DNA of 64,000 nt. Origin: a virus. The stretch covers positions 18,726 through 82,725 of the IMG/VR virus record IMGVR_UViG_3300030060_002561, one strand, 5' to 3'. A model generated the notes under the pieces. It did no database searches. It was not told the origin of the DNA and was given only the letters and a program-made list of their open reading frames with translations. Shown piece after piece: positions 9,569-54,642 of the stretch (positions are counted from its first letter, which is position 1; the number at the start of each line of letters is the position of its first letter). A program made the position numbers and the translations under genes.

Positions 9569-10240
9569 CTAGTAGTCCTTTATCATGGTTAGGACACCTC
9601 TGTAGACCATCTCAGAGTCTGTCTTGGCACTTACTATGTATTTGTAACAAGGAATTCCCTTGTCGTTTAATCTTTGAATGCCATCTCTGAATGCAGAGAA
9701 AATAGGATGCTGTTCTATTGGCCCATCATGTTCATACTTGTCTTTCCACAAGTCATACTTGTTAGCCCATATTCCTACTGCTACTGGATAGTCTGATTCT
9801 CTTTTCTTCTTTCTCTTACCATTGATGTTCCATTCTGTACTGCAAATTGTATCCACTAGGAAAGTCCAACACAGTTGTTGTTCGATATCATAATGCTTGT
9901 CCATGTGTCTATCATCCATCATGAAGATGATGTACTTGACTCTTCGATTCCTCATATCGTTTAACCAGTCATTCCAGTATACCGTCTGTCCACCTACATC
10001 AGCAGTCTTCACAGTATGTGCATCCCCGTCTAGTTTGACGTACTTCCTACTTGCACGTTGCAATCCTTCTGTCCTATGTCGAATATCTGGAACATCACCT
10101 CTCGTTCTCAACTGGTGATTCATAGTGGTCTTACCTGCTCTGGTAGCACCATATATTCCGAAGTTGATTGCATGTACACGTTGGTATAGTTTGTTAAGTC
10201 CCTCGACTATCAATATGGCAAAACCTGCCATTACTGACAA
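9569..10240 (-). CDS. Arf-family small GTPase
   Basis: The 223-residue protein has the full set of small-GTPase motifs: G1 GATRAGKT (residues 31-38), a Thr in the switch I region near residue 57, G3 DVGGQ (81-85), G4 NKYD preceded by Ala and followed by Leu (160-163), and G5 SAK (204-206). The DVGGQ form with a Trp a few residues later and the ANKxDL form are hallmarks of the Arf/SR-beta group rather than Ras or bacterial Era. The N terminus (residues 4-20) is hydrophobic and could anchor the protein to membrane, as in SR-beta. A Lys/Arg-rich loop is inserted before G4. The gene lies between two membrane-protein genes and virion genes. Its role in infection is unknown. Confidence 0.85.
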   Translation of the reverse strand: MSVMAGFAILIVEGLNKLYQRVHAINFGIYGATRAGKTTMNHQLRTRGDVPDIRHRTEGLQRASRKYVKLDGDAHTVKTADVGGQTVYWNDWLNDMRNRRVKYIIFMMDDRHMDKHYDIEQQLCWTFLVDTICSTEWNINGKRKKKRESDYPVAVGIWANKYDLWKDKYEHDGPIEQHPIFSAFRDGIQRLNDKGIPCYKYIVSAKTDSEMVYRGVLTMIKDY

Positions 10241-44376: not shown

Positions 44377-44616
44377 ATGAATGAAAATGGAAAAACAGTT
44401 GAATTCAGGTTGGTCAACGATGAAGAGTTGCCACCTGTTGTAATAACAATGAATGACGATGATGAGCCAAAGGTAGTAATCAATGCTTATCACAAGATAT
44501 GGTTGTCACTACATCGCAAGACTATCGGTGGATGTGGACAACCACTGTTCGATAAGATAGATGCTATACTAGCAGGATTCCTGACAGAGCAGAGAGACAA
44601 TGAGAGGATGGCTTAG
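44377..44616 (+). CDS. small protein, unknown, 79 aa
   Basis: A 79-residue protein with a strand-rich start (EFRLVNDEELPPVVITMN) and a helical end. The start lies three bases after the previous stop. No recognised family. Confidence 0.5.
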   Translation: MNENGKTVEFRLVNDEELPPVVITMNDDDEPKVVINAYHKIWLSLHRKTIGGCGQPLFDKIDAILAGFLTEQRDNERMA

Positions 44617-44722: not shown

Positions 44723-46039
44723 ATGGATGTAGTATATACTAGAGATGACATCGAAGACGGTGCTACAGAGAAGATAGAAGCCAAGCGTGACTTAGGTGAA
44801 GGTAGATGGGACAGAGTTCTCAAGCAAAAGATGGTTGAGTTGTCTGTTGCCGATAACTATGAAGACGCTAAGAAAGAATGGAAAGCAACTGGTAATGTAT
44901 GGTGGTCATCTAGGTACAACGTTACTGACCCCTATGGGAGAAACGAGGATGCCCCAGATTGGGTTAACAACTCTACCAATGGATGTAATCAATGTCTATG
45001 TGGACACAACATCGTGTATCACTTTGAGATAGCGAATACTGAGAATGGTAACGTAGAGTGTGTTGGTTCAGACCACATCACTTCTTACTTGATTCTGAGA
45101 GAGATATCAGAGTCTACTGGTGTTGACATGGATGCAATTACCGAGAGAATGATTCAGGATTGGATTAACGTTCGTGTGAAGTCTATGATTCAAGATGCAT
45201 GGTGGGCAGAGAACGGAGAAGAGTTTGAAGAGATGTTCGATGAGGTCAAGGAAGCAGACTTGAGAATCAATGTTAGATACCATCCTACCAAGCACTATTG
45301 GGATAGTACACTCAGACAACACAAGCGCGTTAGATATCTTAGGAAGAGAGCAGAGGGTTCTGGCCCTGCGCGAAGAAGAGAAATGGCTTCGATTGTATGG
45401 AGATGGAACCATCCAGAGAATGCTAGGAATCAACAGACTACCAGAGGATATCCTAACGAGAGACTATGGTTGGACATGAACAGGTTCTCTTCTCTGATTG
45501 AGGAACATCTTGAGGACATAGAGAAGAAGGACATGACCAAGCAACAGAGAATCGAATGGTTGGAGAACTTCGATGCTGAGTTTGATGCCAAGATGGAAGC
45601 ACAGGGAATGGTGGAAACAAGATTCACTACTAACTGTAAGCGATTTGGTATCCCACTATTCAGTTGGCAAGATGCTCCGACTGCTTGGGACAAGTCCTTC
45701 TTGAAGAAGATGTACTATGCTATCCGAGATAGTGGCGATGAACCTAAACTCGGAAAGTCAGACATCGACAGATTGGAGAAGACATTGGATATGATGTCCA
45801 ATCTAGCAACCAAAGAGCAGAAGGATGTGATTAGTAACTATAGGTCACAACTAGTCGAGGCTAGAAGAACCGACTACGTTCCTAAGTTTCCATACCAGAT
45901 GAAACCGGACATGACATCCGATGAAGCAGAACAACAAATCTCCACTTTGAGGGACATCTTGGATAGCGTTAGGGCTATGCAAGAGATAAAACTTGAAAGG
46001 GAGATAGAGAGTCGTCAACTTACTGACGGAGGCGAATGA
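44723..46039 (+). CDS. early protein, unknown, 438 aa, Cys-rich segment
   Basis: A 438-residue charged protein. Around residues 88-118 it has NGCNQCLCGHN and ECVGSDHI, a probable zinc site. The rest is largely helical with many Trp, Arg and Glu residues. An AGGAGG lies before the start codon. No known family. Confidence 0.6.
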   Translation: MDVVYTRDDIEDGATEKIEAKRDLGEGRWDRVLKQKMVELSVADNYEDAKKEWKATGNVWWSSRYNVTDPYGRNEDAPDWVNNSTNGCNQCLCGHNIVYHFEIANTENGNVECVGSDHITSYLILREISESTGVDMDAITERMIQDWINVRVKSMIQDAWWAENGEEFEEMFDEVKEADLRINVRYHPTKHYWDSTLRQHKRVRYLRKRAEGSGPARRREMASIVWRWNHPENARNQQTTRGYPNERLWLDMNRFSSLIEEHLEDIEKKDMTKQQRIEWLENFDAEFDAKMEAQGMVETRFTTNCKRFGIPLFSWQDAPTAWDKSFLKKMYYAIRDSGDEPKLGKSDIDRLEKTLDMMSNLATKEQKDVISNYRSQLVEARRTDYVPKFPYQMKPDMTSDEAEQQISTLRDILDSVRAMQEIKLEREIESRQLTDGGE

Positions 46040-46309: not shown

Positions 46310-46516
46310 ATGGTAAAATTGACTATAATGAATGAAACCGGACATACCGAGATGGTTGCATCAGCCGCCGAGGTCATCGAACAGATAACGGACCACCCAA
46401 CACACTGGGTATTCGTTGACGGTGAGATGGTCACGCGCGAAACTGTTGATACCGTCAATTGGGAGAGCGTAGAGAACGTCACGCTTGCACCTGCGGTTGT
46501 CGGTGGAATTCGCTGA
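46310..46516 (+). CDS. candidate ubiquitin-like (ThiS/SAMP-type) protein
   Basis: A 68-residue protein whose strand order and C-terminal part fit a beta-grasp protein of the ThiS/MoaD/SAMP kind. WVFVDGEMVTRETVDTV resembles the ThiS segment with an aliphatic strand, N/D-G, x-x-V-x-R. The end is VTLAPAVVGGIR, a Gly-Gly followed by only two residues. Ubiquitin-like modifiers end in Gly-Gly or are trimmed to it by a JAMM-type protease. Early genes downstream encode an E1-like enzyme (51510-52094) and a JAMM protease (52573-53055). The call is inference from sequence pattern and context; the fold could be tested by structure prediction. Confidence 0.5.
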   Translation: MVKLTIMNETGHTEMVASAAEVIEQITDHPTHWVFVDGEMVTRETVDTVNWESVENVTLAPAVVGGIR

Positions 46517-46694
46517 ACAAGGTAGGTTAAGCCCTACAATCAAGAGTAATCTTGGTCGGAAAAACGCAAGCCGCTTCTGGGTATTATATTCATTAGCGGT
46601 AATTACTAAGTAGTGCATTTCGCACCCTTAGTCTCCCAGCAACGAGTGGTTGCCGTGTAGGTGGAATGCCTACTACTTAAGGGGGTTTTAGATA
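46517..46694 (+). promoter_or_regulatory. structured leader before the class II ribonucleotide reductase gene
   Basis: The 178 bases before the reductase gene fold readily by eye: GTAGG/CCTAC (46522), CAAGA-GTAA-TCTTG with a GNRA-type loop (46541-46554), CTAAG..CTTAG enclosing GTGC..GCAC (46606-46631), GCAAC/GTTGC (46639-46653) and GTAGG/CCTAC (46657-46673). GCCGCT (46570) pairs with AGCGGT (46595), and CTGGG (46577) with CCCAG (46635). The last two interlock as a pseudoknot. A conserved RNA motif upstream of nrdJ genes has been described from metagenomes; whether this is it needs a covariance search. The cobalamin box is not obvious. Confidence 0.55.
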
Positions 46695-48587
46695 ATGCAA
46701 AATAAATTAGAAATAGAACAACAAATGATGAGCGATTTGATTGTACCTACAAAATATGCTAGGTATGATTGGGAGTTGGGAAGGAGAGAGACACTCGATG
46801 AAATAATCACAAGGAACATGAACATGCACCTTGACAAATTCAAAGGGAACGAAACTGTCTGTACCAAGATTGTAAAGGTATACAATGACTATGTGAAGAC
46901 GTTGAAGGTATCACCTTCTATGCGTTCCTACCAATTTGCAGGAGATGCTATTCTACGTTCACCTAACAGAATCTACAACTGTTCATTCATGAACATTACA
47001 GATATTAGGTGCTTCGGGGAAGCAATGTTCCTACTACTAGGTGGGACTGGTGTAGGCTATTCAGTGCAGAAGCATCACATAGCACAACTACCACAAGTCA
47101 TGAAGCCTAACCCAGATAGAACCTACAGACATCTGATAGGTGATTCACAAGAAGGATGGGCAGAAGCAATCAACGTACTCTTTGAGTCTTATACTGGTAA
47201 GAGAAGCACTACACCTCGCTTCGACTACTCAGATATCAGACCGAAGGGAGCGTTACTCAAGACTAGTGGTGGCAAGGCTCCCGGCCCGACACCATTGAGA
47301 AACTGCCTCACTATCATAGAAGGCATGTTGATTGACAAGGAGAATTTCACACAACTCAGACCAATAGAAGTACATGACATGCTATGCAGAATTGCAGAGG
47401 CCGTACTATCTGGTGGTATCAGAAGGTCAGCGATGATTTCACTATTCAGTGCAGATGACAGAGAGATGTTGACTGCGAAGACGGTGACTACATACGAGAG
47501 CCATCCATATAGGAAACATGCTAACAACTCTGCGGTTCTAGTTAGGAACAGAGTAACCAAGAAATTCTATGATTCCTTGTGGGAGATAATACAGGCAAAT
47601 GGTGGACATGAGCCGGGTTTCTACTTCACTAACGATAAGGAATGGGGGACCAATCCTTGTGCAGAAATTGGATTACGGGACATGCAGTTCTGTAACTTGA
47701 CTACCTGTAACGTATCAGATGTAGAATCACAAGAGGAATTGAATGCTAGAGTAGAAGCGGCGGCGTTCCTAGGAACATTGCAAGCGACCTACACAGACTT
47801 TCACTTCCTACGTCAAGGATGGAAGAAGACTACTGAGAAGGATGCACTACTTGGTGTATCTATGACTGGTATTGCCAATGGTAAGTTGGATGACTTAGAC
47901 TTGAATGAAGCAGTCGATGTCGTCAAGATGGTGAACAGGGATTGGGCAGAGAAACTAGGCATCAATCCTGCCGCCAGACTTACCTGTGTCAAACCAGAAG
48001 GAACTGCTAGTCTGGTATTCGGAACATCATCGGGGATTCACCCTTGGTGGTCTGACTACTTCATTAGGACTATCAGATATAACAAAGAGGAACCTATCGC
48101 CCAATATCTAATGGAGAACATTCCAGATTTGATAGAAGACGATAGATGGGAAGAAGGCAACATAGTAGTCTTCGTTCCTCAGAAAGCACCAGAAGGTGCA
48201 GTCACTCGCTCGGAGTCTGCTATAGACTTCTTAGAGAGAGTGAAGCATGTGACAGAGAATTGGGTGAAGCCCGGTCACATAGACGGAATGAATACTCACA
48301 ACGTTTCAGCAACAGTTAACGTTCGTGAGAATGAATGGGATTTGGTGAGAGATTGGATGTGGATAAACAGAGATTCCTACAATGGGCTTTCTCTACTACC
48401 TTTCAGTTTCGATGTTGAGGATGGTATAGAAATGCAGATGCCCAACACGGCATGTGACAAGGAGACTTTTGAGAAGTACCTACCACTACTAAAGAAGTTA
48501 GACACCTCGCAGATAATGGAGGATGACGACAACACTCAACTTCAAGGTGAACTCGCATGTTCTGGGGGAACGTGTGAGATACTGTGA
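46695..48587 (+). CDS. nrdJ: adenosylcobalamin-dependent (class II) ribonucleotide reductase
   Basis: The 630-residue enzyme makes deoxyribonucleotides. Cys96 in NCSF, NPCAEI (Cys322, Glu324) and Cys333 fit the active site. The Cys322-Glu324-Cys333 spacing equals that of the Lactobacillus monomeric class II enzyme (408-410-419), and the C-terminal pair Cys622/Cys627 has the same spacing as its 731/736. PEGTASLVFGTSSGIHPWW is typical for class II. It needs cobalamin, presumably from the host. It is preceded by a long structured leader. No class I partner genes are present. Confidence 0.92.
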   Translation: MQNKLEIEQQMMSDLIVPTKYARYDWELGRRETLDEIITRNMNMHLDKFKGNETVCTKIVKVYNDYVKTLKVSPSMRSYQFAGDAILRSPNRIYNCSFMNITDIRCFGEAMFLLLGGTGVGYSVQKHHIAQLPQVMKPNPDRTYRHLIGDSQEGWAEAINVLFESYTGKRSTTPRFDYSDIRPKGALLKTSGGKAPGPTPLRNCLTIIEGMLIDKENFTQLRPIEVHDMLCRIAEAVLSGGIRRSAMISLFSADDREMLTAKTVTTYESHPYRKHANNSAVLVRNRVTKKFYDSLWEIIQANGGHEPGFYFTNDKEWGTNPCAEIGLRDMQFCNLTTCNVSDVESQEELNARVEAAAFLGTLQATYTDFHFLRQGWKKTTEKDALLGVSMTGIANGKLDDLDLNEAVDVVKMVNRDWAEKLGINPAARLTCVKPEGTASLVFGTSSGIHPWWSDYFIRTIRYNKEEPIAQYLMENIPDLIEDDRWEEGNIVVFVPQKAPEGAVTRSESAIDFLERVKHVTENWVKPGHIDGMNTHNVSATVNVRENEWDLVRDWMWINRDSYNGLSLLPFSFDVEDGIEMQMPNTACDKETFEKYLPLLKKLDTSQIMEDDDNTQLQGELACSGGTCEIL

Positions 48588-48913
48588 GATTCCAAATCAC
48601 CCGTAAGTTAGGTCATTACTTTGACGTAAACGAGATTGATTTCATCAGAGATGAGATAATCCGTATATGTCCAGACAATGCGAGTAAGGCTTACGTTGAC
48701 CAAGCGATAGAAGTTGCCAAGAGTGGTAACATGTCTAAAGCAAGGTTGAACAGAATACTAGGACATCAATTACATCGTAGTTGTAAGAAGATGTTCGACA
48801 CCTATCCGGGTGAAGCAATAAAGGAATTATACAATAGAAAACAATACTACATTAAAAATTATGGAGAGAATGAATATGAAAATAAAATTAGGAATACCCT
48901 CGATTGGAGATAG
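48584..48913 (+). CDS. small helical protein downstream of nrdJ, unknown
   Basis: A 109-residue protein overlapping the reductase stop by 4 bases (GTG or ATG start region), rich in Asn, Tyr, Lys and Arg, helical throughout. It overlaps the next gene by about 50 bases. A nucleotide metabolism role is only suggested by its neighbour. Confidence 0.5.
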   Translation: MRFQITRKLGHYFDVNEIDFIRDEIIRICPDNASKAYVDQAIEVAKSGNMSKARLNRILGHQLHRSCKKMFDTYPGEAIKELYNRKQYYIKNYGENEYENKIRNTLDWR

Positions 48914-50552
48914 AAGAGCAGGTCGCGGCACAGAATACATGCACACATCGTTCTTGTTCAACACGAACAACAAGTTACTGATGAAGCAGTTGTATGGCTC
49001 TAACCGCAACAGAATATTTTTGTCACATGACGGTTCATGGTTTGAAGAAAGAATAAAGAAACTTGACATATCTATGTCAGTCTTTGAAGAAGACATGCCA
49101 GTAATATATGTTAAAGGAAGGAAAGAGTATCTTCGCCAAGATAATGAGAAAGACTGGTACTACTATTCACCTAATTCTTTCACAAAGAGCATGAACAAGT
49201 TTGGTGAGAGAGAGATTAACGTACCGAGAGTCCTTGGTATAGGTCAGCACCACAGTGAAGACCCACTATTGTTTGAAGTGGCGAAGACTGTTGAGCAATA
49301 TCTGTTTGGTCCGACTAAGAAGCAGTACAATCTGCTTGGTGCTGATGATAAGAACTACAGGCACTATCTGGGTTGGAAGTTTCCAGATGGAGAAGTCACA
49401 CTTACTATTCAGAGGAAGAAGTCTTCGTTCTACGTTGACCACACTAGGATGTTAAAGAAGGATGCAATCTATGCAGTAGCCAAGATTCTGATGAGAGCAG
49501 TCTATTGCAGAAGTGCAGAGGTCTTGGAAGAATACATCATCAAGGTCACAGAGACACCACACAATGTTCTCTATGCTATTGAGAACAGGAGTCCTTACTT
49601 CTTCTATGAGATGGGCAGGAAGCAGGAAGTGATGCTCAATACCAAGAGCATTGGTTTGAAAGAAGTAGCCATTGAGATATCAGAAGATATCTGGGCAGGA
49701 ATAACCACGAAGGAATGGAACCAATTCTTGAATGTGTATAGGCATGGTGCTAAGAGAAGCAAGAGATGGCTAGGTATTACTCCTAGAGATTTGTGGATTG
49801 AGTTATTCACAGAAGACAAGAGTAAGGATTCGGAAGGTAAGTATCTATTCCCATCAGAGCCTACATCTGGGCAAGAGAAGATGATGCTCGCATGGCTAAA
49901 GCAGAACAGGAAACATGCTATGGTAGAAGACAGAGCAACTCAACTACTGAGAGGACTAGATGCAGAGTACCCACAACTAACCTATGTCAACTGGCCCGGT
50001 ATCGAAGACCAAGCAATTCATGTCAAGGGAAGAGTAAGAGATTGGGTCATTACTGGTAGAGGTGGTATGAAGGTAGGTCATCAGAACGTTTCGACATACT
50101 GTATAAATTCTAACGAGAAGAACATGTCAAGTTCAAGATTGAAGTTCCGAGGTAGGGAGATTAGCCATAGCATTTGCATAGATAACCTACACAACAACTC
50201 AAGCGTAGGTGACCAGATTGCGGCTAGGGCAATGGTGCTTCTGAATGACGAGTCTGCTTCTCACAGAGTATACACGATTCACGGATATGTCAGAGATAGA
50301 GCAACCGATGAGGTATTGGTTAATCAGCCTAGGATACCTGCTAACGAGTTGATGTCTATTCACTATAGCAAGCAGAAGAAGCGAAGGCAAACCAAGGAAG
50401 CGAATGAGGCTCAGAAGAAGGCCAAAGCAGAGAAGGAAGCCGCAGAACAACTTCAACGGGACTTAGAGGAAAGGAGACTACAACGCGAACGTGAAGATGC
50501 TAGGAGAGCCAGAAGGAGAGAAAGGCGAGCGAGAAGGAGGGCGGTACAATGA
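48861..50552 (+). CDS. large early protein with basic C-terminal helix, unknown
   Basis: A 563-residue protein; starts at 48861, or more likely at one of the next in-frame ATG codons (48870, 48876). The N-terminal 450 residues are mixed alpha/beta with many aromatic residues. The last 90 residues are a long, very basic helix (KKAKAEKEAAEQLQRDLEERR, then repeated Arg pairs). No catalytic motif recognised. The gene stands between the reductase and the TFB, and it may act with the transcription genes. Confidence 0.55.
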   Translation: MERMNMKIKLGIPSIGDRRAGRGTEYMHTSFLFNTNNKLLMKQLYGSNRNRIFLSHDGSWFEERIKKLDISMSVFEEDMPVIYVKGRKEYLRQDNEKDWYYYSPNSFTKSMNKFGEREINVPRVLGIGQHHSEDPLLFEVAKTVEQYLFGPTKKQYNLLGADDKNYRHYLGWKFPDGEVTLTIQRKKSSFYVDHTRMLKKDAIYAVAKILMRAVYCRSAEVLEEYIIKVTETPHNVLYAIENRSPYFFYEMGRKQEVMLNTKSIGLKEVAIEISEDIWAGITTKEWNQFLNVYRHGAKRSKRWLGITPRDLWIELFTEDKSKDSEGKYLFPSEPTSGQEKMMLAWLKQNRKHAMVEDRATQLLRGLDAEYPQLTYVNWPGIEDQAIHVKGRVRDWVITGRGGMKVGHQNVSTYCINSNEKNMSSSRLKFRGREISHSICIDNLHNNSSVGDQIAARAMVLLNDESASHRVYTIHGYVRDRATDEVLVNQPRIPANELMSIHYSKQKKRRQTKEANEAQKKAKAEKEAAEQLQRDLEERRLQREREDARRARRRERRARRRAVQ

Positions 50553-51523
50553 AGTGTGAACTGTGTAAGTCTCGCAACCTAGTATTCAACGAAGCACTTG
50601 GCGAGAATGTATGCTCAGAGTGTGGGTATGTCAACGTGACTGCTCCCTTTGAGAAGCACGTTCTCGTCAAGTGGGATGATAGTGGTCAACCTAACAAGAG
50701 TCCAGACAAAGGACATCTAGGTTCTTTCATCGCTAAGAGTGAGGCGTTTGTAAACAAGAAGTTTCACCTTTGGCAACAGAATGTAAGAACAGAGACTTGG
50801 GCGGCACACAAAAGAAAAGCCGCAACGAAAGAAGTTGATACCAAGATGATGATGTATCTATCTGAGTATGGTGCGTCTAAGGATTTGAAGGAAAGCGCGA
50901 AGGCGTATTATCTGGCTATGTTCAAAGACGACTATCTCAGAGGATACTCAAACGAACGTAAAGCGGCAGGTGTGACTTTCTTTGTATTGAAAGAGGCAGG
51001 TATCATAACTAGCCTAGACAAACATGCTAGGATTACTAGAGTGGACAAGAGATATCTCTCTAAGATTGCTAAGAAAATAGCAAAATATGCAAGGAAGTCA
51101 TACGTGTTTGCTAAAGAAACACCACAAGAATCAGTAGATTCTTTGCTTGGAAACATGAAAAACGTAACAGAATCGCAGAGAAATGCGGCTTTTTTGTTCA
51201 TAGAATATGTTTCTAGGGTCTATGAAGACCTAAATATGCGACTATCTAACAATAGAATAGGAGCAGGTGTTTGGATTGCTACTAAAATGATAAGCGAACC
51301 AATTACACAAACAGACATAGTGAAGTATTGGCTATGTTCTGATTACGGCATTAGGAATAATGCTAAGGAAATGTGCGAATTATTGTCAATAGACAAAGCA
51401 AGTTTATCTTGTTATGACATAGAAGACGTAGTTAAAGGAATAAGAGTGAGGAATGAAAATGAAAATGGAAAGAAAAACAGTGAAAGAAACAAGAACGAGG
51501 TGCTTCTGAATGAGGCATCGTAA
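50549..51523 (+). CDS. TFIIB-like transcription factor (TFB)
   Basis: A 324-residue protein. The N terminus has CELC (Cys3, Cys6) and CSEC (Cys22, Cys25), the zinc ribbon that recruits RNA polymerase in TFB. The rest is helical and fits two cyclin-like repeats (around residues 100-195 and 205-300, with NERKAAGVTFFVLKEAG and NNRIGAGVWIATKMIS). The repeats are the DNA- and TBP-binding part. A virus-encoded TFB would allow the virus to direct the host polymerase to its own promoters, such as the palindromic elements near 36-40 kb. It lacks a DNA polymerase or RNA polymerase companion in this window. The divergence of the cyclin part is notable. Confidence 0.8.
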   Translation: MKCELCKSRNLVFNEALGENVCSECGYVNVTAPFEKHVLVKWDDSGQPNKSPDKGHLGSFIAKSEAFVNKKFHLWQQNVRTETWAAHKRKAATKEVDTKMMMYLSEYGASKDLKESAKAYYLAMFKDDYLRGYSNERKAAGVTFFVLKEAGIITSLDKHARITRVDKRYLSKIAKKIAKYARKSYVFAKETPQESVDSLLGNMKNVTESQRNAAFLFIEYVSRVYEDLNMRLSNNRIGAGVWIATKMISEPITQTDIVKYWLCSDYGIRNNAKEMCELLSIDKASLSCYDIEDVVKGIRVRNENENGKKNSERNKNEVLLNEAS

Positions 51524-52094
51524 GGTACTATTGATTGGGGCAGGTGGAATAGGTAGTTATCTAATTCCAATACTGAACAGACTTGGTGTGTATCAGGTTA
51601 CTGCCTTTGACGATGATAAGGTTGAGCAGAAGAATCTGCGGTATCAGAACTTTAGCGCAGATGACCTAGGGGAACTCAAGGTCTATTGCTTCTCTTCTGA
51701 TATGGGTGGTATGTATGAAGCACAACCATATCTTGTTCTAACAGAGAAGCAGTTGAAGGGATATGACTTGGTTATCTGTTGTGCAGATAATCTAGCAGTA
51801 AGAAGAATGCTATATCGTCAAGGCCACGGCGATGATGCTAAAGTCAAGTGGCTTGATTTGAGAGCGCAAGGTCGCAATGCGGCTTTGATTTCTTACAAGG
51901 TGGATAAGAACTTCCAAGATACATTGTTGAATGGGCCAGAGGGTTCTTTCTCCTGCCAAGGCGGAGATTGGGATGGTACTGGTAAGGAAGTAAACTGTAT
52001 GCACATGCTGATTGCAGGATATGCCGCACAATGGATTCAGAAGTGGTTCAATGACCACGATGATGTTGTTGACAAGGTGGTGCTAAATGTATGA
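51510..52094 (+). CDS. ThiF/E1-like adenylating enzyme
   Basis: A 194-residue protein with a Rossmann-type GAGGIGS (residues 10-16), the acidic cluster D34-D36 and the following KVEQKNLRYQNF segment, typical of E1/ThiF/MoeB enzymes that adenylate the C terminus of a ubiquitin-like protein. A DLVICCADN strand corresponds to the ThiF D-x-x-D segment. Cys149 (SFSCQG) is a candidate thioester Cys. The zinc-binding Cys quartet of ThiF is not evident, so the enzyme is minimal. It overlaps the TFB gene end and is followed by a zinc-ribbon gene and a JAMM gene. Confidence 0.8.
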   Translation: MRHRKVLLIGAGGIGSYLIPILNRLGVYQVTAFDDDKVEQKNLRYQNFSADDLGELKVYCFSSDMGGMYEAQPYLVLTEKQLKGYDLVICCADNLAVRRMLYRQGHGDDAKVKWLDLRAQGRNAALISYKVDKNFQDTLLNGPEGSFSCQGGDWDGTGKEVNCMHMLIAGYAAQWIQKWFNDHDDVVDKVVLNV

Positions 52095-52333
52095 AGTTCG
52101 CAAGTGATTATTGGACATGCAAGTGTGGTGACCCTATGGTATGGACACTAGACATCGGAACACCAATTGCATTGGTACAGAACCAACCACGGATACCCGT
52201 ACTGTATGTTTATGGGTGTCAGTCTTGTGGCTACCAAAAGAATGTACGATTGATGATAATCAATCCTGCTACGCAGAATGTAGTAGATGAGATATCAATG
52301 ATAGAAGACACTATGAAAACAGGAGATGAATGA
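52091..52333 (+). CDS. small zinc-ribbon protein
   Basis: An 80-residue protein with CKCGD and, about 30 residues on, CQSCGYQ, a zinc ribbon. It overlaps the E1-like gene by 4 bases and lies between it and the JAMM gene. Possible adaptor for the E1-like enzyme. Confidence 0.55.
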   Translation: MKFASDYWTCKCGDPMVWTLDIGTPIALVQNQPRIPVLYVYGCQSCGYQKNVRLMIINPATQNVVDEISMIEDTMKTGDE

Positions 52334-52573
52334 ATGAGTGATGCAGAGAAAATAGAGGATTTAACAGAGGAAGACATTGATAATATTGTGGATATACTAT
52401 CGACAGATGGATACTATCCACAAGCGCAGATTGTGAAAGTTACATGTCCCGCATGTGGTGAAGCGTTTCTAGGAACGAAGAGACATGCAGGTGGTTTCAT
52501 TGCAGGTCATAAAGCGTATCACGAATTTGAGAATCAGATGGATGTCATGATTAAAGAAATGGGCGGAGCATAA
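52334..52573 (+). CDS. small C2H2-like zinc finger protein
   Basis: A 79-residue protein with CPACGEAF then H...H (KRHAGGFIAGHKAYH), a C2H2-like finger, and an acidic helical N terminus. It ends GGA, like a ubiquitin-like tail, but the fold is otherwise a zinc finger and I do not treat it as a modifier. It overlaps the JAMM gene by one base. Confidence 0.5.
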   Translation: MSDAEKIEDLTEEDIDNIVDILSTDGYYPQAQIVKVTCPACGEAFLGTKRHAGGFIAGHKAYHEFENQMDVMIKEMGGA

Positions 52574-53055
52574 TGGAGATTAAGAATGAGAATTGGAAGA
52601 GAGATATTGTTGATGCGTTTGTATCCTGTATATCACATACCACAGGGCCAGTACCATACAACAATCCAAACAACGAATTAGAGGCTTTTCTCTCAGTTAT
52701 CTGGGAGAAGTCGATGAAGGCTTTCGACAAACCTAGAGAAGTACAGGTAGTCGTTGACGCGAAGAACACAGTCTTCATCAATGTTGGAACACCTAGTTTC
52801 GTTTCGTTTGATGGTGCAGACGAAGAAGAATTGGAAGGTATGAAATTGCCATTCAAGTGTTGGATTCACACCCATCCATTTGGTCAAGCGTACTTTAGTG
52901 GAACTGATTGGAAGACGCTGAACACATGGAAGCCAATGCTCGCCAATGCAATAGTATTGGGTGATAACGAGTATTGGGCATATGACGTAAAGAGGGAGAT
53001 AGTAAAGCAAGTAAAGTATGGACTGCTTCAAAGTCCGAAAATAGAAGAGGAATAA
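52573..53055 (+). CDS. JAMM/MPN+ metalloprotease (deubiquitinase-like)
   Basis: A 160-residue protein with the JAMM zinc motif: H99-x-H101, seven residues, S109, x-x, D112. An N-terminal Glu needed for catalysis is likely within residues 30-45 (NNELEAF). In archaea such proteases remove SAMP modifiers and trim their precursors. The E1-like gene lies 480 bases upstream. Substrate unknown. Confidence 0.8.
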   Translation: MEIKNENWKRDIVDAFVSCISHTTGPVPYNNPNNELEAFLSVIWEKSMKAFDKPREVQVVVDAKNTVFINVGTPSFVSFDGADEEELEGMKLPFKCWIHTHPFGQAYFSGTDWKTLNTWKPMLANAIVLGDNEYWAYDVKREIVKQVKYGLLQSPKIEEE

Positions 53056-54020: not shown

Positions 54021-54412
54021 AACGAGCGATTTCTATCAACTTCCCTGCTCCTATTGGAGCGCAGATATCATGCCCCATTTGTGAAGGCAACAAGTGTAAG
54101 GTATGTGACATGACGGGTAAGATAGAAGTCAATGTCGGTGCAAAGGTTCCCATTCAGCAACACTTGATTGTGAAGTACGTTGCTGAGAATCTAGAAGAAG
54201 TATCATCTGAGTTGTCAAAGCATTTCGGTCTTGTTCCTATGGTACAGACAGAAGACATGTTCAACGTAGGTGAGAAGACGTATGAGTTGGTGAAGATAAG
54301 TAGTGTTGGTGGAGTAGTTTGGGTTGCTCATAGAGTTGATGAGTTGGAGTCCCCAAGGTACTTCACTTCCGTACTTCATCTTTCAAATTTCAAAAGGGGG
54401 ATGAGCGATTGA
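54017..54412 (+). CDS. small zinc-binding protein
   Basis: A 131-residue protein with CPICEGNKCKVCDMTG near residues 19-34, a compact zinc knuckle of the DnaJ-like CxxC type. The rest is alpha/beta. Function unknown. It overlaps the next gene by 4 bases. Confidence 0.5.
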   Translation: MKRAISINFPAPIGAQISCPICEGNKCKVCDMTGKIEVNVGAKVPIQQHLIVKYVAENLEEVSSELSKHFGLVPMVQTEDMFNVGEKTYELVKISSVGGVVWVAHRVDELESPRYFTSVLHLSNFKRGMSD

Positions 54413-54642
54413 GTAATGATAAGATGAAGATAGTGGCTAGGTTTCCTAGAAGCGCAACAACGGAGTTGGTGGTGCAAGAAGGAGAGTATTGGAACATCGA
54501 GGTAATTGACGTTAGATGGTTCAATGAAGGAAAGCCCACAAGGAAGGGCATAAGAATAAACAAAGACGAGTTAGGGAATCTCTTGAAAATTCTCAATAAA
54601 ATTGGTGATAAAAATGTGGATAAGAATGGCGAGGATGCTTGA
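54409..54642 (+). CDS. PC4/Sub1-like protein (putative single-stranded DNA-binding coactivator)
   Basis: A 77-residue protein from a TTG start that overlaps the previous stop. Its central part, IDVRWFNEGKPTRKGIRINKD, followed by the helix ELGNLLKIL, resembles the PC4/Sub1 fold: a basic strand pattern with a Gly-containing turn and a helix. PC4 proteins bind single-stranded DNA and act in transcription and replication. It overlaps the ligase start. The assignment is by pattern and moderate. Confidence 0.5.
   Translation: MSNDKMKIVARFPRSATTELVVQEGEYWNIEVIDVRWFNEGKPTRKGIRINKDELGNLLKILNKIGDKNVDKNGEDA

Follow-up and report, generated by a model that had tools for sequence, protein, structure and literature searches.

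The locus examined here raises the question of whether a marine virus encodes a protein-tagging pathway of its own. For the window (the whole 64,000-nucleotide stretch of DNA that was analysed), a first-pass annotation made from sequence alone had proposed such a pathway, with a 68-residue modifier, an E1-like enzyme and a JAMM protease. We consider it likely that the virus encodes a reversible tagging system of the ubiquitin/SAMP type; its activity and conjugation are inferred, as is the host. The computational support consists of three folds or motifs, a conserved Gly-Gly, linkage of the genes and a lysine-poor modifier.

The source record, a viral contig, carries genes for terminase, portal, prohead protease and capsid, and a search of 84,980 genomes turned up no cellular relative of the modifier at the sensitivity used. 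The claim that the set is virus-encoded therefore held. No relative of the modifier was found in named phages either. The virus also has PolB, RFC, TFB and two ligases, and a ligase adjoins the prohead protease. An affinity to magroviruses (Magrovirales) is possible, the evidence being only indirect (gene content, and the ligase/prohead protease adjacency as described for group A). The TFIIB-like (TFB) gene in the cassette is a marker that indicates an archaeal host for these marine viruses, a likely inference. The trio lies among early/replication genes, on the strand opposite to the structural genes. A small tag, an activating enzyme and a removing enzyme make up the predicted three-part ubiquitin-like kit of this group of marine viruses, which may label proteins during infection.

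The 68-residue protein

The putative modifier gene (46310–46516, + strand) encodes a protein with the C-terminus VVGGIR, in which Gly65-Gly66 (46502–46507) is followed by a two-residue tail, Ile-Arg. The AlphaFold (AF2) model, with a pLDDT of 86, shows the order beta-beta-alpha-beta-beta-alpha-beta of a beta-grasp fold. When this model was searched against the PDB with Foldseek, the top matches were ubiquitin and NEDD8, with modest scores (TM 0.4–0.54; best TM 0.54, E 0.01). The profile of the protein matched archaeal ThiS-family (ThiS/MoaD-type) proteins at 82.8% in hhalign, and the alignment ran through PAxxGG. Column-shuffled profiles (n = 100) gave at most 1.5%, and the match dropped to 13% without the tail. 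Hence, the 68-residue protein with a ThiS-like end held as annotated. A protein not folding as beta-grasp, which had been named in advance as a refutation, was not what we obtained, the fold being predicted by AF2, Foldseek and the profile.

Gly-Gly was present near the C-terminus in all 102 distinct relatives, followed by 0–3 variable residues (none in 10, one in 37, two in 53 and three in 2). Its codons vary freely, with 13 combinations among the 102 proteins (e.g., GGCGGC and GGTGGA); since the residues are invariant despite this, Gly-Gly is conserved as protein. An origin as by-product of a ribosome-binding site was ruled out by the varying codons and, in the window, by the start of the next gene, about 180 nt downstream. 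The 68-residue protein is very likely a small ubiquitin-like modifier, with its fold predicted by model and its covalent conjugation to targets inferred. A weak Pfam match to CSN7_HB_subdom, seen for only 3 of 17 members, was taken as noise.

The E1-like enzyme and the JAMM protease

The E1-like adenylating enzyme (51510–52094, + strand) is minimal, with 194 residues, and matches Pfam ThiF at 6e-17. The GAGGIG reported for it held. A D..NLRYQ segment had also been reported; it is present, and was refined to D-x-D-x4-KNxxYQ, in which Tyr replaces the arginine of the usual NLxRQ. Among 121 relatives, KNxxYQ occurred in 117 and NxxRQ in none. GxGGIGS was found in 119/121 and DxD..KN in 117/121, so that the criteria for a Rossmann adenylation domain are met. 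Among solved structures, the best match was Cap2 (1e-10), and the AF2 model (pLDDT 89) resembled the folds of UBA5, Cap2 and MoeB at TM 0.65–0.75. The sequences contain no zinc CxxC, no separate Cys domain and no rhodanese domain. SCQ is present in 121/121 relatives, and its invariant Cys149 (51954–51956) lies in a flexible loop. From the fold and the invariant residues, Cys149 is possibly the catalytic cysteine, though this is a guess. It may be noted that the start of the E1 gene may be too late to include the arginine helix found at the N-terminus of MoeB-type enzymes.

The fold matches also included AclA, PaaA and MccB. These would suit peptide or small-molecule chemistry, with the enzyme taking a peptide or small substrate as MccB/PaaA/AclA do, and the ubiquitin-like protein serving as carrier, not as protein tag. 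However, UBA5, Cap2 and MoeB/ThiF match the fold equally well, and a deubiquitinase-type JAMM together with a beta-grasp Gly-Gly partner suits tagging better. We see almost no room for this alternative.

The JAMM/MPN+ metalloprotease (52573–53055, + strand; 160 residues) has the motif HxHx7Sx2D (HTHPFGQAYFSGTD), as had been claimed, with Glu56, His99, His101, Ser109 and Asp112. Pfam Prok-JAB matched this protein at 4e-4, and matched 15 of 15 relatives. Profile matches to AMSH-LP (3e-5) and archaeal CsRpn11 (4e-4) place deubiquitinases as its nearest solved relatives. The Glu and HxHx7Sx2D were complete in 129 of 130 relatives, the remaining one being truncated. Named phages yielded one marginal JAMM relative, and ThiF relatives of the E1 that were distant and from crAss-like phages.

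Linkage and gene neighbourhood

The co-occurrence of the genes in related viruses, a check suggested by the first-pass annotation, was run. An E1 gene and a JAMM gene with complete active site lay downstream on the same strand at 94 of the 95 distinct modifier genes with enough sequence; the exception was cut off. In the reciprocal check, 92/92 E1 genes were accompanied by the modifier, and 80/80 JAMM genes by both modifier and E1. Strand and gene order were the same in 185/185. When relatives were chosen by their capsid gene, modifier and E1 were both present or both absent. One related virus, G023, is without the entire cassette, and the system is therefore dispensable in G023. The other named refutation, E1 and JAMM genes without the modifier and with no conserved Gly-Gly, was not met in relatives with enough sequence. 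The loci all come from viruses related by descent and are not independent; with this proviso, the three genes co-occur far beyond chance.

Other members of the cassette, all on the + strand, are conserved as well: a 79-residue protein (44377–44616; 89/96 loci), a 438-residue protein of unknown function that lies a short distance upstream of the modifier and has a conserved CxCGH motif (44723–46039; 90/96), a 563-residue protein with invariant Cys439 (48861–50552; 94/96) and the TFB transcription factor (50549–51523; Pfam Zn_Ribbon_TF 8e-7; 94/96). A class II ribonucleotide reductase between modifier and E1, identified by Pfam (46695–48587, + strand), is optional, being present in 64/96 loci. 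The 563-residue protein is weakly similar to a protein encoded next to an E1-like gene on a Methanoperedens contig (BLASTP 9e-4 over 50 residues); considered as a possible E2, it gave no family match.

The two small zinc proteins annotated between E1 and JAMM are present on the + strand. The zinc-ribbon-like one (52091–52333) is not a conserved part, its sole relative being from a near-identical virus, and the zinc-finger-like one (52334–52573) is an optional neighbour in 45/96 loci. The latter has an MGGx-like end, with Gly-Gly in 16/16 cases. It was not accepted as a second modifier, as in most loci GGAGGA directly precedes the following start codon; here, the MGGx end overlaps what is probably the ribosome-binding site of the JAMM gene. 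By analogy, the C-terminal GEEE of the JAMM protein is probably also a by-product of a ribosome-binding site.

Proposed tagging, its alternatives and known systems

The lysine content of the modifier is 1.3%; JAMM, which is just as acidic, has 6.6%, and most neighbours have 6–8%. Arginine in the modifier is not reduced relative to JAMM. No lysine occurs beyond the first strand in 84 of 102 modifiers. At the loci of the ten tailless modifiers, which already end in Gly-Gly, the JAMM active site was complete in 10/10. Reversible tagging is favoured over sulfur transfer because the modifier is selectively lysine-poor and JAMM is intact where modifiers are tailless.

As a sulfur carrier, the ThiS/MoaD-like protein would be thiocarboxylated and donate sulfur (for tRNA thiolation or cysteine/cofactor synthesis) via host sulfurtransferases, and JAMM would only mature or recycle it, like Mec+ for CysO. 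In favour of this, ThiS is the closest profile to the modifier, and operons of JAMM, a ubiquitin-like protein and cysteine synthase are known (PMC1779556). Many ThiF-type E1 enzymes serve sulfur transfer. Against it, rhodanese (PF00581), PALP/CysM-like (PF00291) and TtuA-like ATP_bind_3 (PF01171) genes were found in 0 of 22 related records, with positive controls, although host partners could still serve. The E1 has neither rhodanese domain nor CxxC, and a sulfur carrier predicts neither the lysine depletion nor the JAMM kept in tailless lineages. We regard it as unlikely.

In the tagging pathway that we prefer, JAMM would first trim the 0–3-residue tail, where present, to expose Gly-Gly. The minimal E1 with ATP would then adenylate the C-terminal Gly, possibly with transfer to Cys149, as inferred from the fold and invariant residues. 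As in archaeal SAMPylation, the modifier would be joined to target lysines with no recognisable E2; alternatively, an unrecognised partner or host factor would take part. Finally, JAMM may remove the tag, a step inferred from its retention with tailless modifiers. No E2 or E3 was recognised; the control searches for E2 (including Prok-E2_D) were also silent, so that absence is not shown. The initial suggestion that the virus tags its own or host proteins is largely supported, with activity and targets inferred; viral replication/transcription proteins and host proteins are equally open as targets, and we cannot decide between them.

Eukaryotic viruses often exploit ubiquitin. Prokaryotic viruses are known to carry ubiquitin-like or JAMM components, as in the tail genes of lambda and in crAss-like phages, and to be targeted by ubiquitin-like defences. 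A bolder reading, towards which we lean by a small margin, is that a large group of ocean archaeal viruses runs its own complete, E2-independent, reversible tagging pathway with a dedicated lysine-poor modifier, an arginine-less minimal E1 and a JAMM isopeptidase. It would be the first autonomous ubiquitin-like conjugation pathway in prokaryote viruses, controlling proteins during infection. If true, the complete set across many marine archaeal viruses would make such tagging a viral tool in prokaryotes too, and such a very small system without E2 would help in studying the origin of ubiquitin-like tagging.

A virus-borne modifier-E1-JAMM set was not described in the literature searched. Like the archaeal SAMP system of Haloferax (SAMP1/2, UbaA, HvJAMM1), the set has a small beta-grasp Gly-Gly modifier, one E1-like enzyme, a JAMM and no recognised E2. 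Unlike it, the trio is virus-encoded and linked on one strand, the precursor tails are of 0–3 residues, and the minimal E1 (194 residues) lacks the NLxRQ arginine and CxxC; at 37 bits against the UbaA model (cut-off 450), the UbaA-type criterion is not met. The PRTRC cassette (ThiF-related E1, JAB protein A, E2-like and ubiquitin-like genes) supplies the best NCBIfam match of the E1, PRTRC_ThiF (54 bits, 1.4e-14). This is far below the 145-bit cut-off, however; no PRTRC family model matched the modifier or JAMM, and Prok-E2_D was not found, its control being silent. Bacterial E1/E2/JAB/Ubl operons (6A–6E types of Iyer et al. 2006, CBASS Cap2-Cap3, Bub/Bil) share E1 and JAMM, with defence-type conjugation and, in Cap2, the best solved match. 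Those operons are cellular, with a separate or fused E2-like domain, whereas the viral set consists of separate genes with no E2 seen.

Among phages, crAss001 has adjoining ThiF and JAB genes (gp76/gp77) in a replication region with a class II ribonucleotide reductase. Its host is bacterial, however, its proteins are larger, identity is ~28% over part of the E1, and no small Gly-Gly-tailed modifier was found in crAss001. The lambda tail assembly proteins I (Ubl) and K (JAB) likewise bring the two domains together (PMC1779556), but in a tail module without E1, whereas here E1 is present and the strand is opposite to the structural genes.

The first-pass annotation had also raised interference with host SAMPylation, which stays possible without specific evidence. 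The modifier would act as a decoy in the SAMP pathway of the host, or JAMM would strip the tags with which the host marks viral proteins, a role proposed for the deSAMPylases of Borgs. Borgs have many JAMM deSAMPylases, with SAMP in one, and bacterial defence conjugates ubiquitin-like proteins to phage proteins (cited in PMC12660748). Yet stripping requires no dedicated E1 or modifier, and the trio is kept in every locus with enough sequence; there is also no sign of mimicry, because no close cellular relative of the modifier was found. We consider interference very unlikely compared with tagging by the virus itself. As archaeal extrachromosomal elements with SAMP and JAMM proteins, Borgs resemble the present case, but their E1 is reported in the genome of the host Methanoperedens (PMC12660748), whereas the virus described here has its own E1 in a linked set.

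Linkage and loss of the Ubl, E1 and JAMM genes

The first-pass annotation had placed genes for a 68-residue ubiquitin-like modifier candidate (Ubl; 46310–46516, plus strand, C-terminus VVGGIR), a 194-aa ThiF/E1-like protein (E1; 51510–52094, plus strand) and a 160-aa JAMM protease (52573–53055, plus strand) in the window, and all three were found to be real and correctly placed. When viral contigs were scanned with profiles, 134 stretches were retrieved for Ubl, 381 for E1 and 315 for JAMM, and for each gene the analysis covered the top 80; since some loci overlap on one contig, counts are given for distinct proteins. Where enough sequence was available, Ubl lay upstream of E1 for 92 of 92 distinct E1s, both partners were present for 94 of 95 distinct Ubls, and both Ubl and E1 accompanied 80 of 80 JAMMs. 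In the sole Ubl exception, locus L046, the sequence stops shortly past E1. Strand and order were the same in 185 of 185 loci, despite a Ubl–E1 spacing of 2.6–7.7 kb.

In a trio-independent test, 21 records were chosen by their capsid gene and then searched for Ubl, E1 and JAMM. Ubl and E1 were present in 14, 13 of which also had JAMM; the remaining one stops past E1. The other seven had none of the three; judging by how far from the capsid gene the trio should lie, six of them are too short. The seventh, G023, has terminase (86%) and portal (81%) in common, and the flanking helicase, glycosylase and clamp-loader genes too. It showed no match to Ubl, E1, JAMM, the TFIIB-like protein (TFB), the 438-aa and 563-aa proteins or the class II ribonucleotide reductase, and carries other genes between the shared flanks. 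Therefore, the trio is retained or lost as part of a larger cassette, and at least one virus can do without that cassette. Co-occurrence of the trio in related viruses, suggested earlier as a check, held wherever there was enough sequence, G023 lacking all three genes. One of the genes replacing the whole cassette there (G023:C1:26800–32800) encodes a 708-aa protein, SNF2-type helicase-like by eye.

Fold and C-terminus of the Ubl

The AlphaFold model of Ubl, built on 17 relatives (pLDDT 86), had its elements in the order strand-strand-helix-strand-strand-helix-strand, and its four C-terminal residues, GG among them, were disordered. Its top structural matches were nearly all ubiquitin, NEDD8 and their relatives, including the Caldiarchaeum ubiquitin, with modest scores (probability ~0.95, E 0.014, TM 0.40–0.54). 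On this order and these matches, the beta-grasp fold suggested earlier is predicted. In an independent test, the viral Ubl profile (31 diverse rows) was compared by hhalign with four ThiS-family proteins of one Methanoperedens genome, whose C-termini read PAVSGG or similar. The probability was 82.8%, with the alignment reaching the GG, compared with at most 0.4% for unrelated profiles and 1.5% for the best of 100 column shuffles. On removal of the tail it dropped to 13%, the score still exceeding that of every shuffle.

All 102 distinct Ubls examined ended in GG followed by 0 (10), 1 (37), 2 (53) or 3 (2) residues, the Gly-Gly being encoded by 13 codon combinations. Lysine made up 1.3% of Ubl against 6.6% of JAMM, the latter being equal in glutamate and arginine content, and no lysine occurred past the first strand in 84 of the 102. 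We infer that a nearly lysine-free modifier would escape tagging by its own E1, though the scarcity of lysine may have other causes. In several loci (e.g., L002, L008 and L013), a conserved hairpin-like stretch, AGTCTTAGCAGTAGTTAGATTGACTGCC, directly follows the Ubl stop codon on its 3′ side; it could conceivably be a terminator or a regulatory RNA.

The E1 and JAMM proteins and the question of tagging

E1 matched Pfam ThiF at 6e-17, and its model (pLDDT 89) matched UBA5, Cap2, MoeB and ThiF (TM 0.65–0.75). Two of these, UBA5 and MoeB, are E1s built of a single domain, with no Cys domain apart from it. Asp34, Asp36, Lys57, Asp93 and Cys149 were invariant; Cys149 sits in a low-confidence loop of the model, at the place where the catalytic Cys of single-domain E1s is found. 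A tyrosine replaces the arginine of the usual NLxRQ motif. YQ occurs at the same position in the Methanoperedens contig L103, and the arginine is missing from crAss-like phage ThiF as well. No CxxC was found in the viral E1s. The family is divergent; its adenylating activity is inferred, there being no activity data. On L103 (7833–10555), the short E1-like gene adjoins one for a protein of 712 aa, which bears a weak similarity to the 563-aa protein of the viral cassette.

JAMM taken singly matched Pfam Prok-JAB weakly (4e-4), yet 15 of 15 relatives matched. Against solved structures, its profile matched an AMSH-like protease (3e-5) and an archaeal Rpn11 homologue (4e-4). The neighbouring zinc-finger-like protein (52334–52573) carries a strongly conserved GTKRHAGGFIAGHxAYHE and a terminal MGGx; in most loci the stretch coding for this GG coincides in part with what is likely the JAMM gene's ribosome-binding site.

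In ten distinct Ubls the GG is already terminal and maturation is not required, yet their JAMMs are intact. This suggests another JAMM substrate, which we infer to be, probably and most simply, Ubl conjugates. The retention of JAMM with tailless Ubls and the lysine-poor Ubl both favour reversible tagging, which we regard as the likely, though inferred, function. The sulfur-transfer partners rhodanese, PALP and ATP_bind_3 were not found in 22 records, the controls being positive. The claim of a ubiquitin-like modification pathway is supported for its parts and likely chemistry; target and purpose are not settled.

Known systems, virus and host

SAMPylation, the archaeal ubiquitin-like tagging (PMC4443979, PMC4895103), is nearest to the viral set in logic, but the viral E1 is not of the type of its E1, UbaA (37 bits against a cut-off of 450). 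The closest named family, PRTRC_ThiF, was also matched well under its cut-off. E1-JAB-Ubl operons in bacteria and Ubl-JAB tail genes in phages have been described (Iyer et al. 2006, PMC1779556), and Borgs carry deSAMPylases and one SAMP (PMC12660748). In crAss001 (L244, 2265–4663), JAB (gp77) adjoins ThiF (gp76) with no obvious Ubl; this pair may represent a system that is related yet distinct. The full-text literature searched yielded no account of archaeal viruses with a virus-borne Ubl-E1-JAMM set, but key magrovirus papers lie outside it and absence is unproven. Within that literature no paper named both magroviruses and ThiF, and the magrovirus-related papers mentioned neither 'ThiF' nor 'ubiquitin'.

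The window belongs to a viral contig of 82.7 kb. Its left half carries terminase, portal, prohead protease and capsid genes on the minus strand, and its right half helicase, ligase, clamp-loader, TFIIB-like and ribonucleotide reductase genes on the plus strand. The RFC-type clamp loader best matched those of haloarchaeal tailed viruses; together with TFB, it points to an archaeal tailed virus, an inference we consider likely. A ligase gene adjoins a prohead protease gene, much as described for the group A magroviruses, viruses of Marine Group II archaea (PMC7318539); the 'magrovirus' label and the host remain inferences, without comparison with reference magroviruses. A B-family polymerase was present in 20 of 22 related records. 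In most of the related records, among G001–G021, its gene is interrupted or falls into two ORFs; in L247 these are of 467 and 311 aa. The structural module also includes an Arf/SRPRB-like small GTPase (9569–10240, minus strand; GATRAGKT and DVGGQ; Pfam Arf, E 0.0055), and a PC4-like transcriptional coactivator (54409–54642; Pfam PC4, 1.4e-4) shares a cluster with the TFIIB-like gene.
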